From the NCBI GenBank assembly GCA_017554235.1, contig JAFZIV010000035.1, forward strand, positions 1-64,000: a stretch of DNA of 64,000 bases, read 5' to 3'. Positions 11,461 through 61,421 of the stretch are shown here, piece after piece. The position numbers and the translations under genes were made by a program. Source of the stretch: Selenomonadaceae bacterium. Its GTDB lineage: Bacteria; Bacillota; Negativicutes; Selenomonadales; Selenomonadaceae. The notes below the pieces were generated by a model. It was not told where the DNA came from. It searched no databases and saw nothing but the letters and a program-made list of their open reading frames with translations. The first letter of the stretch is position 1. The number at the start of each line of letters is the position of its first letter.

Positions 11461-11488
11461 AAAAAATCGCGCCCACAATAGCGCGAAG
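11461..11488 (-). terminator. Minus-strand terminator with no upstream ORF
   Basis: TCGCGC-TATTGTGG-GCGCGA followed by eight T on the minus strand. It points toward groES and ends transcription coming from the ORF-free 11.5-11.9 kb stretch. Confidence 0.75.
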
Positions 11489-11569
11489 GGAAAATTTTTC
11501 TTGCCGTTTAATTGTGTTTGTTGTAAAATAATTTTCGCGTGGTCGATTGTCGACTTCCTCTCGTCAACT

Positions 11570-11717
11570 ACCCCACGAATAAATTCAGGGGCTTGCAGTT
11601 AGCTTAAGCCACCGCGTTCGGCTGGTTGACGACAGCCCTGCAAATATTTCTATTTGCAGCATTGAGGTTTCCCAAATCGGGTGCCTTTAAGCCTTAGCTA
11701 CAACCGTTTCCCCGATA
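11570..11717 (-). ncRNA. Predicted structured RNA inside element copy A (omega-RNA-like)
   Basis: Begins just downstream of a -35/-10 pair. Predicted helices include AUCGGG pairing with CCCGAU, CUGCAA-N-UUGCAG, GGCUG-N8-CAGCC, and the end stem CCCC...GGGG. The last stem has different loop-side sequence in the two copies but still pairs. No reading frame is kept. The resemblance to TnpB right-end guide RNAs is an inference. Confidence 0.5.
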
Positions 11718-11722
11718 TTCGT

Positions 11723-11751
11723 AGTTTAAGCTATAGGAAAAATTTTTGTAA
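11723..11751 (-). promoter_or_regulatory. Promoter of the element-borne RNA, copy A
   Basis: On the minus strand TTACAA, a 17-bp spacer and TAAACT. The same spacing and the same -10 occur in copy B (44786-44814), although the spacer sequences differ. Confidence 0.6.
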
Positions 11752-11895
11752 GTTTTTTGTGCCTTATCCCCCCTAATGCCTAAAAACGGGGTTTCTCGGT
11801 GTAATTTAGTAAGCACGACTTCCAAAAATTTATCAACACAATCAGTTTTTAGAGGAAGTCGACGCGTAAAAATCGACCACTCTTTTAGTAACTAA

Positions 11896-43464: not shown

Positions 43465-44634
43465 ATGGCAGGATTTTTAGAAACACCATACGGCACAAGA
43501 GATTTTTTGCCGAAAGAAGCGGCGGCTAAACGCGAAATTGAAAATAGATTGGCTAAACTTTTCGCAAGTTATGGCTACGAAGAAGTTGTAACGCCGACAA
43601 TGGAATTTTTAGAGACGCTGAAAATGTCAGGCGGCACTGTCGAGCAAAATTTATTTAAAATGTTCGACCAAAAAAATAGGACGCTGGCACTTCATCATGA
43701 AATGACAACTCCTATAGCACGGTTATTTGTGAGTCGTTTTAAAGATTTAGAATTGCCGCTGAAACTTTCCTACAACACGAGCGTTTTCAGATTCAGACAG
43801 AATCAACCTCAACGTCAATGTGAATTTTATCAAGCCGGCGTTGAACTTTTAGGCGTGTCTAATGCCTTTGCGGACGCGGAAATTATTTCGCTTGCCGCGC
43901 AGAGTTTGAAAATTTCCGGATTGAAGGAATTTAAAATTTGTTTAGGTCAAGTCGAATTTGCCAACGGCTTAATGGAAGAATTTAAATTGCCGCTCGACGT
44001 TCAGAATAAAATTAAAAATGCGCTTGAATGCCACGACGTAGTTGAATTGGAAAAAATTGTTGACGGCATTGATAACGAAAAAGCAAAAGTTTTGAAAGAA
44101 ATTCCAAAGTTGCATGGCGGCGCGGAGGTTTTAAAACGTGCCGGAAGAATTATTGATAACAAAAAATCTTTTACGGCGTTGAATAATTTGGTAGACATTT
44201 ACAATTTGGCGGATATGTACGGCGACTCGGATAAAATTATTTTTGACTTGGGCATAATTCGCGACTTTGAATATTATACGGGCATGGTGTTTGAAGTTTA
44301 CGCGCCAAATGTCGGCTACTCTTTAGCTGGCGGCGGGCGTTACGATCATATGCTGAAAGATTTTGGCATAGCTTGTCCTGCGACGGGTTTTGCGGTAGGT
44401 ATCGAAAGAATTTTGCAAGCGCGAGAACTTCAAGGTATTACGGAAAATTTTTCTGCGCGGGACGTTTATATTGGCTATCATGAAGCGCAGGTTGAAGACG
44501 CGATTAAAAAGGCGGCTGAACTTCGGGCGGCAGGTAAAATTGTAGAATTGGCACTTATGCCGCAGACTTTTGAAGACGCTACTAAGTCGGGCATGGCAAA
44601 AAATTTTGATGAGATGATTTATTTTGGTCAATAA
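43465..44634 (+). CDS. hisZ: ATP phosphoribosyltransferase regulatory subunit
   Basis: 389 residues, a class II HisRS-like paralogue. Motif 1 region YGTRDFLPKEAAAKREIENRL; motif 2 region SVFRFRQNQPQRQCEFYQAG; motif 3-like GGGRYDHMLKDFG. It partners the short form of HisG in histidine synthesis. A HisG gene would be expected next, but the 236-bp element copy B begins at its last codons, and the neighbouring gene is an HD protein. The final Gln-stop lies inside the element's TTGAC end. A tRNA synthetase (hisS) is excluded by the missing anticodon domain. Confidence 0.9.
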   Translation: MAGFLETPYGTRDFLPKEAAAKREIENRLAKLFASYGYEEVVTPTMEFLETLKMSGGTVEQNLFKMFDQKNRTLALHHEMTTPIARLFVSRFKDLELPLKLSYNTSVFRFRQNQPQRQCEFYQAGVELLGVSNAFADAEIISLAAQSLKISGLKEFKICLGQVEFANGLMEEFKLPLDVQNKIKNALECHDVVELEKIVDGIDNEKAKVLKEIPKLHGGAEVLKRAGRIIDNKKSFTALNNLVDIYNLADMYGDSDKIIFDLGIIRDFEYYTGMVFEVYAPNVGYSLAGGGRYDHMLKDFGIACPATGFAVGIERILQARELQGITENFSARDVYIGYHEAQVEDAIKKAAELRAAGKIVELALMPQTFEDATKSGMAKNFDEMIYFGQ

Positions 44635-44780
44635 CCCCACGCTACGGCGGGGCTTGCAGTTAGATTTTCATCCACCGCGTTCGGCTGATTGACGACAGCC
44701 CTGCAAATATTTCTACTTGCAGCATTGAGGTTTCCCAAATCGGGTGCCTTTAAGCCTTAGCTACAACCGTTTCCCCGATA
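44634..44780 (-). ncRNA. Predicted structured RNA inside element copy B
   Basis: The counterpart of the copy A RNA, with two substitutions in the ~110-nt core. Transcription past the element's end would run antisense into the 3' end of hisZ. If it works like a TnpB guide RNA, that flank would be the guide. Confidence 0.5.
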
Positions 44781-44785
44781 TTTTT

Positions 44786-44814
44786 AGTTTAGCATACAGA
44801 AAAAGCATTTGCAA
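44786..44814 (-). promoter_or_regulatory. Promoter of the element-borne RNA, copy B
   Basis: TTGCAA, 17 bp, TAAACT on the minus strand, placed as in copy A. Confidence 0.6.
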
Positions 44815-44896
44815 GAAAATTCGCGCCTTACCTCCCCATGACTGAAGGCAGGGGATTCTCGGCGCACGAAGGTGAATAACCGAAAGGAATTTTGGA

Positions 44897-60163: not shown

Positions 60164-61421
60164 CGAAAATCGGCGAAAAGCCCCCTGCTTTAGCTGTGGG
60201 GATGAATTCAAAAAAATGAGAGGAAGGACAATGATGAAAACCTACCGCTTTAAGCTTTATAAATCAGAACGTAATGAAAAACTGCATAAACAGATAAACG
60301 CGGCAGGTCTCATCTATAATCATTGTATCGCTCTTCATAAACGCTACTACAAGATTTTTGGCAGATATTTAAATAAAAATAACCTGCAGAAACATCTCGT
60401 AAAGCTTAAGAAAAGAGGTAAATTTAGTTATATCAAAGAAATAGGTTCGCAAGCAGTTCAAGACATAACCGACAGAATAGACAGAGCATATCAATTATTT
60501 TTCAATAACTTAAAAAGAAAGGTAAGGTGTTCGCCGCCAAATTTTAAGAAGGTTAGAAAATATAAGTCTTTCACGTTGAAAGAAAAAGCAGGTTGGAAAT
60601 TAGATGAGAACACACATACTTTAAAAGTGAATGGACAGAATTATAGATATTTCCAATCGCGAAGAATCAGCGGTAAAGTTAAAACAGTAACGATAAAGCG
60701 AGACAGTTTAGGAGATATTTATGTCTGCATAGTCACGGACGCAAAAGATTTTGTAGTTGAAACGCGAACAGGTGAAAGAGTCGGTTTCGACTTCGGATTA
60801 AAAACTTTCTTAACAGCGTCAGACGGAGACGACATAATCAGTCCAATGTTCTTTGCCCAAAATTCAGTTGCGATAAAAAAAGCGTGCAAAAATCTTTCCC
60901 ACAAAAAGAAAGATTCAAACAATCGGAGAAAATTAGTTTTAAAACTTGCAAGACTGTACAAAAAATCAGCGAATCAACGACACGACTTTCACTTTAAGTT
61001 GGCGCGTCAACTCTGCTTAAAGTACGAAACAATTTGTATAGAAGACTTAAACGTAAAAGGAATGCAAAGGCTGTACGGAAAGAAGATAGGAGATTTGGCG
61101 TTCAGTGAGTTTGTAAATATTCTAAGGTATACGGCGTCAAAGTTTGGAGTAAATGTCGTTGAAGTAGACAGATATTTTGCTTCAAGTCAAATATGTCATA
61201 GTTGCGGCTATAAAAATTCAGAATTAAAAGATTTGAAAATAAGAGATTGGATATGTCCAAAATGTGGTGAAAAACACGACAGAGATAGAAACGCCGCGAT
61301 AAACATATTAAAATATGGGTTGGGGCATCGACCCATGCAGTAGACCTTGTAAGACCTCTTTTTTGAGGCATTGGTTGATGATAGCAGAATCCCCCGCCTT
61401 TAGGCGTCGGGAGTATGTCAA
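60164..61421 (+). mobile_element. IS200/IS605-type TnpB-only transposon
   Basis: Left end hairpin CCCCCTGCTTTAGCTGTGGGG (from about 60180), right end hairpin CCCCCGCCTTTAGGCGTCGGG (61391-61411), ending GTATGTCAA. It lies directly after TTTAC, which resembles the target/TAM sequence of this superfamily. No target duplication, as expected. No TnpA gene. Confidence 0.85.
60231..61343 (+). CDS. tnpB: RNA-guided nuclease TnpB (OrfB)
   Basis: About 370 residues, complete. RuvC residues: Asp in RVGFDFGLKTFLTASDG, Glu in ICIEDLNVKGMQRL, Asp in HDRDRNAAINILKYG. The zinc finger is CHSCGY...CPKCGE. N-terminal bridging region YRFKLYKSERNEKLHKQINA. ATG 60231 follows GAGAGGAAGG. The guide (omega) RNA would come from the 3' end of the gene and the right end (about 61250-61421); its guide would read into 61422 onward, the HepT fragment. 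Confidence 0.93.
   Translation: MMKTYRFKLYKSERNEKLHKQINAAGLIYNHCIALHKRYYKIFGRYLNKNNLQKHLVKLKKRGKFSYIKEIGSQAVQDITDRIDRAYQLFFNNLKRKVRCSPPNFKKVRKYKSFTLKEKAGWKLDENTHTLKVNGQNYRYFQSRRISGKVKTVTIKRDSLGDIYVCIVTDAKDFVVETRTGERVGFDFGLKTFLTASDGDDIISPMFFAQNSVAIKKACKNLSHKKKDSNNRRKLVLKLARLYKKSANQRHDFHFKLARQLCLKYETICIEDLNVKGMQRLYGKKIGDLAFSEFVNILRYTASKFGVNVVEVDRYFASSQICHSCGYKNSELKDLKIRDWICPKCGEKHDRDRNAAINILKYGLGHRPMQ

Follow-up and report, generated by a model that had tools for sequence, protein, structure and literature searches.

A gene-less IS200/IS605-type element that probably carries a standalone TnpB guide RNA in a Selenomonadaceae bacterium

Results

Two copies of an element without a gene

The stretch analysed here (the window) comprises the first 64,000 nt of contig JAFZIV010000035.1 of a Selenomonadaceae bacterium (assembly GCA_017554235.1). 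It contains two copies of a short element in the same orientation, as a first-pass annotation made from the sequence alone had claimed (Table 1). Element boundaries were set by the insertion-motif junctions, i.e., the terminal GTTGAC and, for copy 1, the TTAC motif beside the left end. This gives lengths of 246 bp and 245 bp, which replace the 236 bp (11563-11799) proposed before. Read on the minus strand, an insertion motif is followed by a left-end hairpin, a promoter-like sequence, a structured RNA, a right-end hairpin, GUUGAC and the flank. The longest ATG-initiated ORF inside either copy has 25 codons, confirming that the element lacks a substantial reading frame, and no tnpB in cis was found inside the 246-bp or the 245-bp element. 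The TnpB encoded in the window, at 60216-61343, is of another type.

On the minus strand, the region from ATATCGGGG to GCGGTGG forms 110 alignment columns with 2 differences between the copies, as read from the alignment, whereas the stretch covering left end and promoter is identical at 49 of 90 positions in a pairwise alignment. The earlier estimate of approx. 110 nearly invariant base pairs with two differences is therefore correct, and both differences are compatible with pairing. One converts an A-U into a G-U pair within a stem; the other is a C to U change in GUCAAC, compensated by a G to A change in the terminal GUUGAC, 57 nt downstream. The statement that the element is present twice applies to the window, but the genome as a whole, when searched with the DNA sequence, holds four close copies and one decayed copy of approx. 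70% identity, besides a 69-nt stretch that matches a tnpB gene on contig C24 at its 3′ end. A degenerate DNA pattern gave no matches over the genome's contigs. Cargo of a phage or plasmid was rejected as an explanation, since no match was found in the phage and plasmid collections searched.

Concerning the surroundings, the presumed guide of copy 2 is located in the 3′-terminal part of a histidyl-tRNA synthetase-like gene. The last codon and the stop of this ORF (43465-44634) are supplied by the element (44626-44634); thus, the insertion seems to have altered the end of the gene. Copy 1 is flanked by perfect 13-nt inverted repeats, GTCGACTTCCTCT and AGAGGAAGTCGAC (11549-11561 and 11851-11863), one arm of which falls inside the presumed guide. 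These repeats give the impression of an older palindrome into which the element was inserted.

Table 1. Positions of the features described in the text, in window coordinates or, for copies behind tRNA genes, in locus coordinates.
Feature	Position	Strand	Remark
Element copy 1	11563..11808	minus	left end 11808, right end 11563
Element copy 2	44627..44871	minus	left end 44871, right end 44627; empty sites in relatives
TTAC beside left end, copy 1 (variant of TCAC)	11809..11812	minus	
TCAC insertion motif, presumed TAM, copy 2	44872..44875	minus	
Left-end hairpin region, copy 1	11760..11808	minus	same arrangement as at the C24 tnpB element's left end
Left-end hairpin region, copy 2	44822..44871	minus	
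Promoter-like TTACAA-17-TAAACT, copy 1	11723..11751	minus	not reported by simple scan
Promoter-like TTGCAA-17-TAAACT, copy 2	44786..44814	minus	not reported by simple scan
Putative standalone omega-RNA scaffold, copy 1	11563..11717	minus	R1 match 1-158, E=5.0e-44 (copy included in model)
Putative standalone omega-RNA scaffold, copy 2	44627..44780	minus	R1 match 1-158, E=2.5e-39 (copy included in model)
Presumed guide, copy 1	11543..11562	minus	flank just 3′ of GUUGAC; by analogy with the TnpB reRNA in passages of PMC8612924
Presumed guide, copy 2	44607..44626	minus	flank 3′ of element
Terminator-like hairpin 3′ of copy 1 guide	11467..11486	minus	1 found, 0.5 expected by chance
Putative standalone omega-RNA behind tRNA (G075)	L025:1392-1716		between tRNA-Val(GAC) and tRNA-Val(CAC)
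Putative standalone omega-RNA behind tRNA (G087)	L032:1399-1738		between tRNA-Val(GAC) and tRNA-Val(CAC)
Putative standalone omega-RNA behind tRNA (G104)	L035:1482-1732		behind tRNA-Ser(GGA)
Putative standalone omega-RNA behind tRNA (G051)	L063:1440-1691		behind tRNA-Ser(GGA)

Transposon ends, insertion motif and empty sites

Inspection by eye found TCAC beside the left end in 14 of the 15 copies with a recognizable left end, the remaining one being copy 1 with TTAC; L031, L037 and L060, which have a vestigial left end and are not part of this count, carry TCAC as well. At the other end, similarity among the copies stops at GUUGAC or variants thereof, and the flanks differ in 26 of 26 cases. 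Both ends of the standalone elements recur in the tnpB element on contig C24, whose left end likewise follows TCAC. All eight relatives examined for an empty site of copy 2 have both flanks, 11-215 nt apart, and no element. In one of them (G058), TCAC directly precedes the sequence that is the guide in copy 2, with 17 of 20 positions identical; this is the one site of the eight in which the TCAC junction is readable, and the absence of a target duplication rests on it. Hence, what is expected of a gene-less IS200/IS605 element was observed as regards hairpin ends common with a full element, insertion at a fixed motif and the missing target duplication. A Y1 transposase (PF01797) able to move the element had no match in this 94% complete draft genome, so present mobility is unsupported. 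Among the copies, L005 and L064 are decayed and L061 is internally deleted.

RNA structure and strand

We extracted 26 standalone copies from this genome and its relatives; partial, deleted or N-containing copies (L033, L055, L057, L058, L061, L062, L064) were kept apart. For the alignment, 24 copies were used, leaving out L005 (decayed) and L037 (long insertion). RNAalifold predicted 35 pairs, 15 of which show two-sided changes. In a 41-pair structure including a pseudoknot, 96.9% of the 962 pair cells are standard, and copies keeping the sequence but not the pairing, named in the first-pass annotation as possible evidence against a conserved RNA, are absent among the 24. Both sides have changed in 20 pairs, compared to 8.7 in shuffled alignments, and none of 500 shuffles reached any of five covariation measures, which rules out chance repeats; related sequences may beat shuffles without structure, though seldom on measures that count pairs or types. 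Sliding the partner strand lets the pairing fall to 23-41%.

The pseudoknot joins the loop of the GGCUG hairpin (GUCAAY) to the last six bases (RUUGAC), i.e., to the 3′ end of the scaffold. It is paired in 24 of 24 copies, with double changes in three of the six pairs. Alternatively, the GUCAAC/GUUGAC pairing could be kept for a transposase at the DNA level. Regarding the strand, the pair cells comprise 93 G-U against 16 A-C when read on the window's minus strand, which is therefore taken as the functional one. Folding z-scores of the two window copies are −3.1 and −2.6 on the minus strand versus −2.3 and −0.3 on the plus strand.

Homology to the 3′ end of tnpB

A covariance model, R1, was built from the 24 standalone copies, with no tnpB locus included. 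In this genome, it finds the tnpB gene on contig C24 (G000:C24) with E=2.7e-23, the match lying at the 3′ end of the gene and the right end of its element. Applied to 52 loci, it detected 12 of 12 tnpB loci of this type (called P0001 after the C24 protein), and all 29 standalone loci (24 of which are in the model), and gave no match in eleven further TnpB or IscB loci. The twelve include C24 itself, and several of them were first found by DNA similarity to the element, four by protein; a thirteenth locus (G097:C24) is cut before the 3′ end and was not counted. The eleven were taken from a total of 15 further PF07282/RRXRR loci in this genome. These results support the earlier proposal of a noncoding, mobile RNA that might be a guide RNA of the TnpB type, with its protein encoded elsewhere. 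The same proposal had called the window's own TnpB no obvious partner, rightly so: this gene (L010) is among the eleven without an R1 match and was ruled out.

At C24, the match (L007:1652-1787) begins within the tnpB frame and shares 95 nt with its end, the stop codon ending at 1746; an overlap of this kind is usual for TnpB omega-RNAs. The reservation that the block might be coding in a known IS thus holds for this overlap, but the 5′ domain of the standalone RNA has no counterpart there. Judging from the alignments, only the 3′ half of the standalone RNA is homologous to the 3′ end of the tnpB transcript; the 5′ part of the R1 alignment in tnpB is a fit to an unrelated hairpin and no homology.

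R1 matches occur in 26 of 189 genomes of the family, all of one genus, and the sample drawn at order level consists of the same 189 genomes. At class level, 27 of 380 genomes match, of which 26 belong to this genus and the remaining one is weak (E=5e-6). Further, 61 of 74 loci that encode relatives of the P0001 TnpB in named genomes were searched. Fifteen matched at E<1e-5, in every case at the tnpB 3′ end and in the orientation of the gene. Eight are from the same genus and mostly repeat earlier loci; seven are distant and spread over several phyla, with titles naming Bacillota, Clostridia, Caldilineaceae, Latescibacterota, Proteobacteria, Persephonella and Methanosarcina. No R1 match was obtained in the remaining 46 of these 61 more or less related TnpB loci and, consequently, the scaffold is not common to all of them.

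When 41 RNAs were placed in a midpoint-rooted tree, one clade (support 0.975) comprised the 12 tnpB-borne RNAs and no standalone one. This indicates that recent deletion in the observed tnpB copies is not how the standalone RNAs arose. The latter do not form a clade of their own in this tree; the sister of the tnpB clade is L034.

Promoter and 5′ domain

Both window copies carry a promoter-like sequence at the same place, as had been claimed before, with TTACAA or TTGCAA and a spacing of 17 nt to TAAACT. These are weak matches, fitting the consensus at no more than 8 of 12 positions, and a standard promoter scan reports neither. Relatives carry TTGATT-17-TATAAT at the corresponding place. An exact TATAAT directly precedes the RNA at the same offset in 12 of the 26 copies (shifted by a base in one), and TAAACT or TAAAAT in five more, including all four close copies of this genome; 15 of those 17 copies have a hexamer beginning with TTG 16-17 nt upstream. 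The tally was made by eye from a scan taking the best site per copy, and its informative part is the offset. In L026, L036 and L060, which stem from different genomes, a hairpin GTTGGCAG..CTGCYGTAAAAANCAACG or a variant of it lies just before the RNA and replaces the usual promoter.

The first 46 nt of the RNA were searched for separately. A pattern derived from standalone copies, AAACGGTT-N5-35-AAGGCACYCG, has 31 matches in 66 genomes of the genus and one in the reversed control. R1 matches overlap 27 of the 31, and the other four are at contig starts; none of the 31 occurrences of the domain (AAACGGUU..AAGGCACYCG) is at a tnpB locus. Looking for its source, we also ran a profile of the 5′ domain on the 12 tnpB loci, where nothing better than E=0.5, i.e., no credible match, was found; of three positive controls, two were clear and one, the decayed L005, reached only E=0.1. 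The 5′ domain thus resembles a module that was added to the RNA and not a part derived from tnpB.

Candidate partner protein and distribution in the genus

The candidate partner is the C24 TnpB (P0001). Its frame is open, it has the Pfam domains TNB and OrfB, and it matches solved TnpB and Cas12f chains. Residues D181, E263 and D352, which we take to be the RuvC residues, and four zinc-ribbon cysteines are invariant in seven of seven aligned sequences. Close relatives of P0001 (E≤1e-60) are found in 11 of the 189 genomes, all of the same genus and all with R1 matches.

Genomes with R1 matches of E≤1e-10 that are not at tnpB were counted as carriers of a standalone RNA (tally by eye, G113 not inspected). 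There are 17 among the 66 genomes of the genus, six with and eleven without a P0001-type TnpB. The association of RNA and TnpB within the genus is modest (counts 6, 5, 11 and 44; Fisher p=0.026, uncorrected for relatedness). Five of the eleven have protein matches at 28-34% identity only, and six have none at E≤1e-12. Several of the eleven are incomplete, fragmented assemblies and the copies are often at contig ends; in G068, which is 100% complete and has one copy, the RNA clearly occurs in the absence of its partner TnpB. G090 is a further genome that has many copies but apparently no such TnpB.

Copies behind tRNA genes

Four copies in relatives, lacking left end and promoter, directly follow tRNA genes. 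The start of the guide fits the tRNA sequence right after TCAC for 14 nt in L032, for 9 nt in L063 and for 8 nt, followed by a mismatch, in L025; the L035 guide has no tRNA match after TCAC. L025, L032 and L063 are the only three of the 26 copies whose best guide match within the locus follows TCAC. By length, matches of 8 and 9 nt are within chance (at least 9 nt in 24 of 520 shuffles), and the match of 14 nt exceeds all 520. The tRNA-linked scaffolds differ in sequence, yet keep their pairing. These copies look like old insertions into tRNA genes, in which the tRNA was later rebuilt and the guide RNA left behind, and they would be transcribed from the tRNA promoter.

Discussion

TnpB is the ancestor of Cas12, and the TnpB guide RNA is known as a by-product of the protein's own messenger RNA. 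We consider it likely that the element described here is a non-autonomous one of the IS200/IS605 type (tnpB-only type), which has lost tnpB, has kept both ends, the promoter and the omega-RNA, and would borrow a transposase as well as the C24 TnpB in trans. Its anatomy, homology, structure, strand and ends, and the insertion next to TCAC or TTAC, appear directly from sequence comparison. Among the properties of an omega-RNA, we found homology to the 3′ end and right end of tnpB, in the 3′ part only (12/12 against 0/11 loci), a pseudoknot with the 3′ end of the scaffold, and a scaffold ending at the transposon end with the flank as guide, whose use we infer; encoding in cis with tnpB was not found.

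Passages of the ISDra2 study describe an RNA of approx. 150 nt from the right end with approx. 16 nt of the flank as guide, cleavage by TnpB beside the insertion motif, which serves as target motif (TAM), and a proposed restoration of the transposon at the empty donor site (PMC8612924). Processing of its own messenger RNA into guide RNA by TnpB is reported in parts of a further study (PMC10278001), and sections of another describe a gene drive on plasmids, in which TnpB favours its IS by cutting copies that lack it (PMC11870625). By analogy, transcription, TnpB binding, cleavage and retention of the element may proceed as follows. The standalone RNA would be transcribed from its own promoter, with the flanking 16-20 nt serving as its guide, and would be bound in trans by the C24 TnpB. 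The complex would cut copies of the site that are free of the element (TCAC plus target), and repair would restore the element. The element would then be a guide-RNA-only hitchhiker on a borrowed transposase and a borrowed TnpB nuclease; as it would supply nothing but the guide RNA, the nuclease would protect the site of the hitchhiker, too.

The known kinds to which this belongs are the TnpB omega-RNA and gene-less IS200/IS605 elements (PATEs). As in the ISDra2 reRNA, so far as described in the passages cited, an RNA of approx. 150 nt ends at the right end, the guide is derived from the flank and the 5′ TAM is the insertion motif. In contrast to it, tnpB is absent in cis, a promoter is at a fixed place and a 5′ domain is added. 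Likewise, TnpB is in cis in the gene drive as outlined in those sections of PMC11870625, whereas here the nuclease would be borrowed. PATEs are introduced, in the parts of the source used, as short palindromic IS200/IS605 ends without genes that are said often to move with a transposase in trans, and in a PATE-like sequence of Halanaerobium, the final 58 nt of tnpB have been retained together with the right end (PMC7290912). Gene-less IS200/IS605 ends are shared with the present element. Unlike PATEs as presented there, it conserves a promoter and a covarying RNA; a count in the main text of that paper gave no words beginning with “RNA”. Thus, what differs from the known kinds is a stable separation from tnpB, namely the promoter at a fixed place, the added conserved domain and the covariation among copies without tnpB. 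Among the literature matches listed, no title or abstract opening refers to a TnpB RNA as orphan, standalone, non-autonomous or acting in trans. TnpB guide RNAs that are encoded in trans, have a promoter and an extra domain and are present in many species of a genus would represent the sort of intermediate in which guide and nuclease become separated, as happened later in CRISPR.

Which other explanations fit? Rfam reports no family at gathering score over the window, and for copy 1 at a relaxed threshold only a weak plus-strand match to HEARO, besides an unrelated weak match nearby. One could read this as an IscB-type (HEARO) omega-RNA that lies on the plus strand, has a 5′-terminal guide and serves an IscB-like protein of the genome. 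Indeed, HEARO is the best Rfam match of copy 1 (22.7 bits, E=0.012), the genome has five RRXRR loci, three of them with HEARO RNAs above gathering score, the HEARO 5′ end at L018 is 96% identical to copy 2 over the first 26 nt of the latter, and folding of copy 1 is better than that of shuffles on the plus strand, too (z −2.3). However, the score is far under the gathering score of 83 and the match covers the transposon end only, R1 matches none of the four IscB loci tested, both the G-U counts and the folding energies point to the minus strand, and the interior homology of the element is to tnpB. The 26 common nucleotides would be accounted for if IscB and TnpB elements share a transposon end in opposite orientation. 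We rejected this reading, which can hardly be correct. More weight, although still unlikely, has the view that all copies are dead remnants, i.e., deletion derivatives of tnpB elements with idle transcripts, whose conserved block reflects a recent common origin or DNA bound by TnpA. Decay in L005 and L064, the internal deletion in L061, the lack of a Y1 TnpA in the genome and of the cognate TnpB in 11 of 17 carrier genomes would be in line with it. What it leaves unexplained are compensatory changes in helices far from the ends, in 24 copies from many species, and the divergence of left end and spacer (49/90) next to an RNA block that has hardly diverged (108/110). The promoter at a fixed offset, the clade of 12 tnpB RNAs (0.975) free of standalone RNAs, and the promoterless tRNA-linked copies, which change in sequence and keep the fold, speak against it as well.

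TldR-type repressors use TnpB-derived guides, and the RNA might similarly have been recruited by the host for regulation rather than for retention of a transposon. Copies without left end are found in the same tRNA neighbourhoods in two genome pairs (L025/L032 and L035/L063) with the fold kept, as such a role would predict. Nevertheless, host recruitment is very unlikely, given that the only matching TnpB retains the RuvC residues, the guides differ across the 26 copies and most copies keep the mobile ends. The borrowed-TnpB element proposed above could be taken one step further: it is conceivable, if rather doubtful, that the RNAs constitute a selfish, guide-RNA-only lineage with its own promoter and 5′ domain, which acts as a homing drive with TnpB in trans and was captured in places into tRNA units, where the Val-tRNA neighbours trim it to a guide of 14-15 nt. 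If true, the copies between tRNA-Val(GAC) and tRNA-Val(CAC) would represent a natural tRNA-guide RNA-tRNA array, and a nuclease-based transposon drive could itself be parasitised.

Standalone IscB omega-RNAs reportedly exist in Ktedonobacter. With these and with HEARO (RF02033), the present RNA has in common that it is a mobile guide RNA and that one transposon end is shared; it differs from HEARO in having the guide at the other end, the other strand and another fold. Two left ends of IscB/HEARO elements of this genome resemble the TnpB-type right end in reverse complement (window positions 44624-44656), L018:1378-1353 at 96% over 26 nt and L020:2335-2301 at 83% over 35 nt, and a search with simple patterns for a matching other end between IscB/HEARO and TnpB elements found none. 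Finally, a group I intron (Rfam RF00028, 65.5 bits) is located at L017:78-409 (G000:C16) upstream of another TnpB ORF, presumably an IStron-like arrangement.
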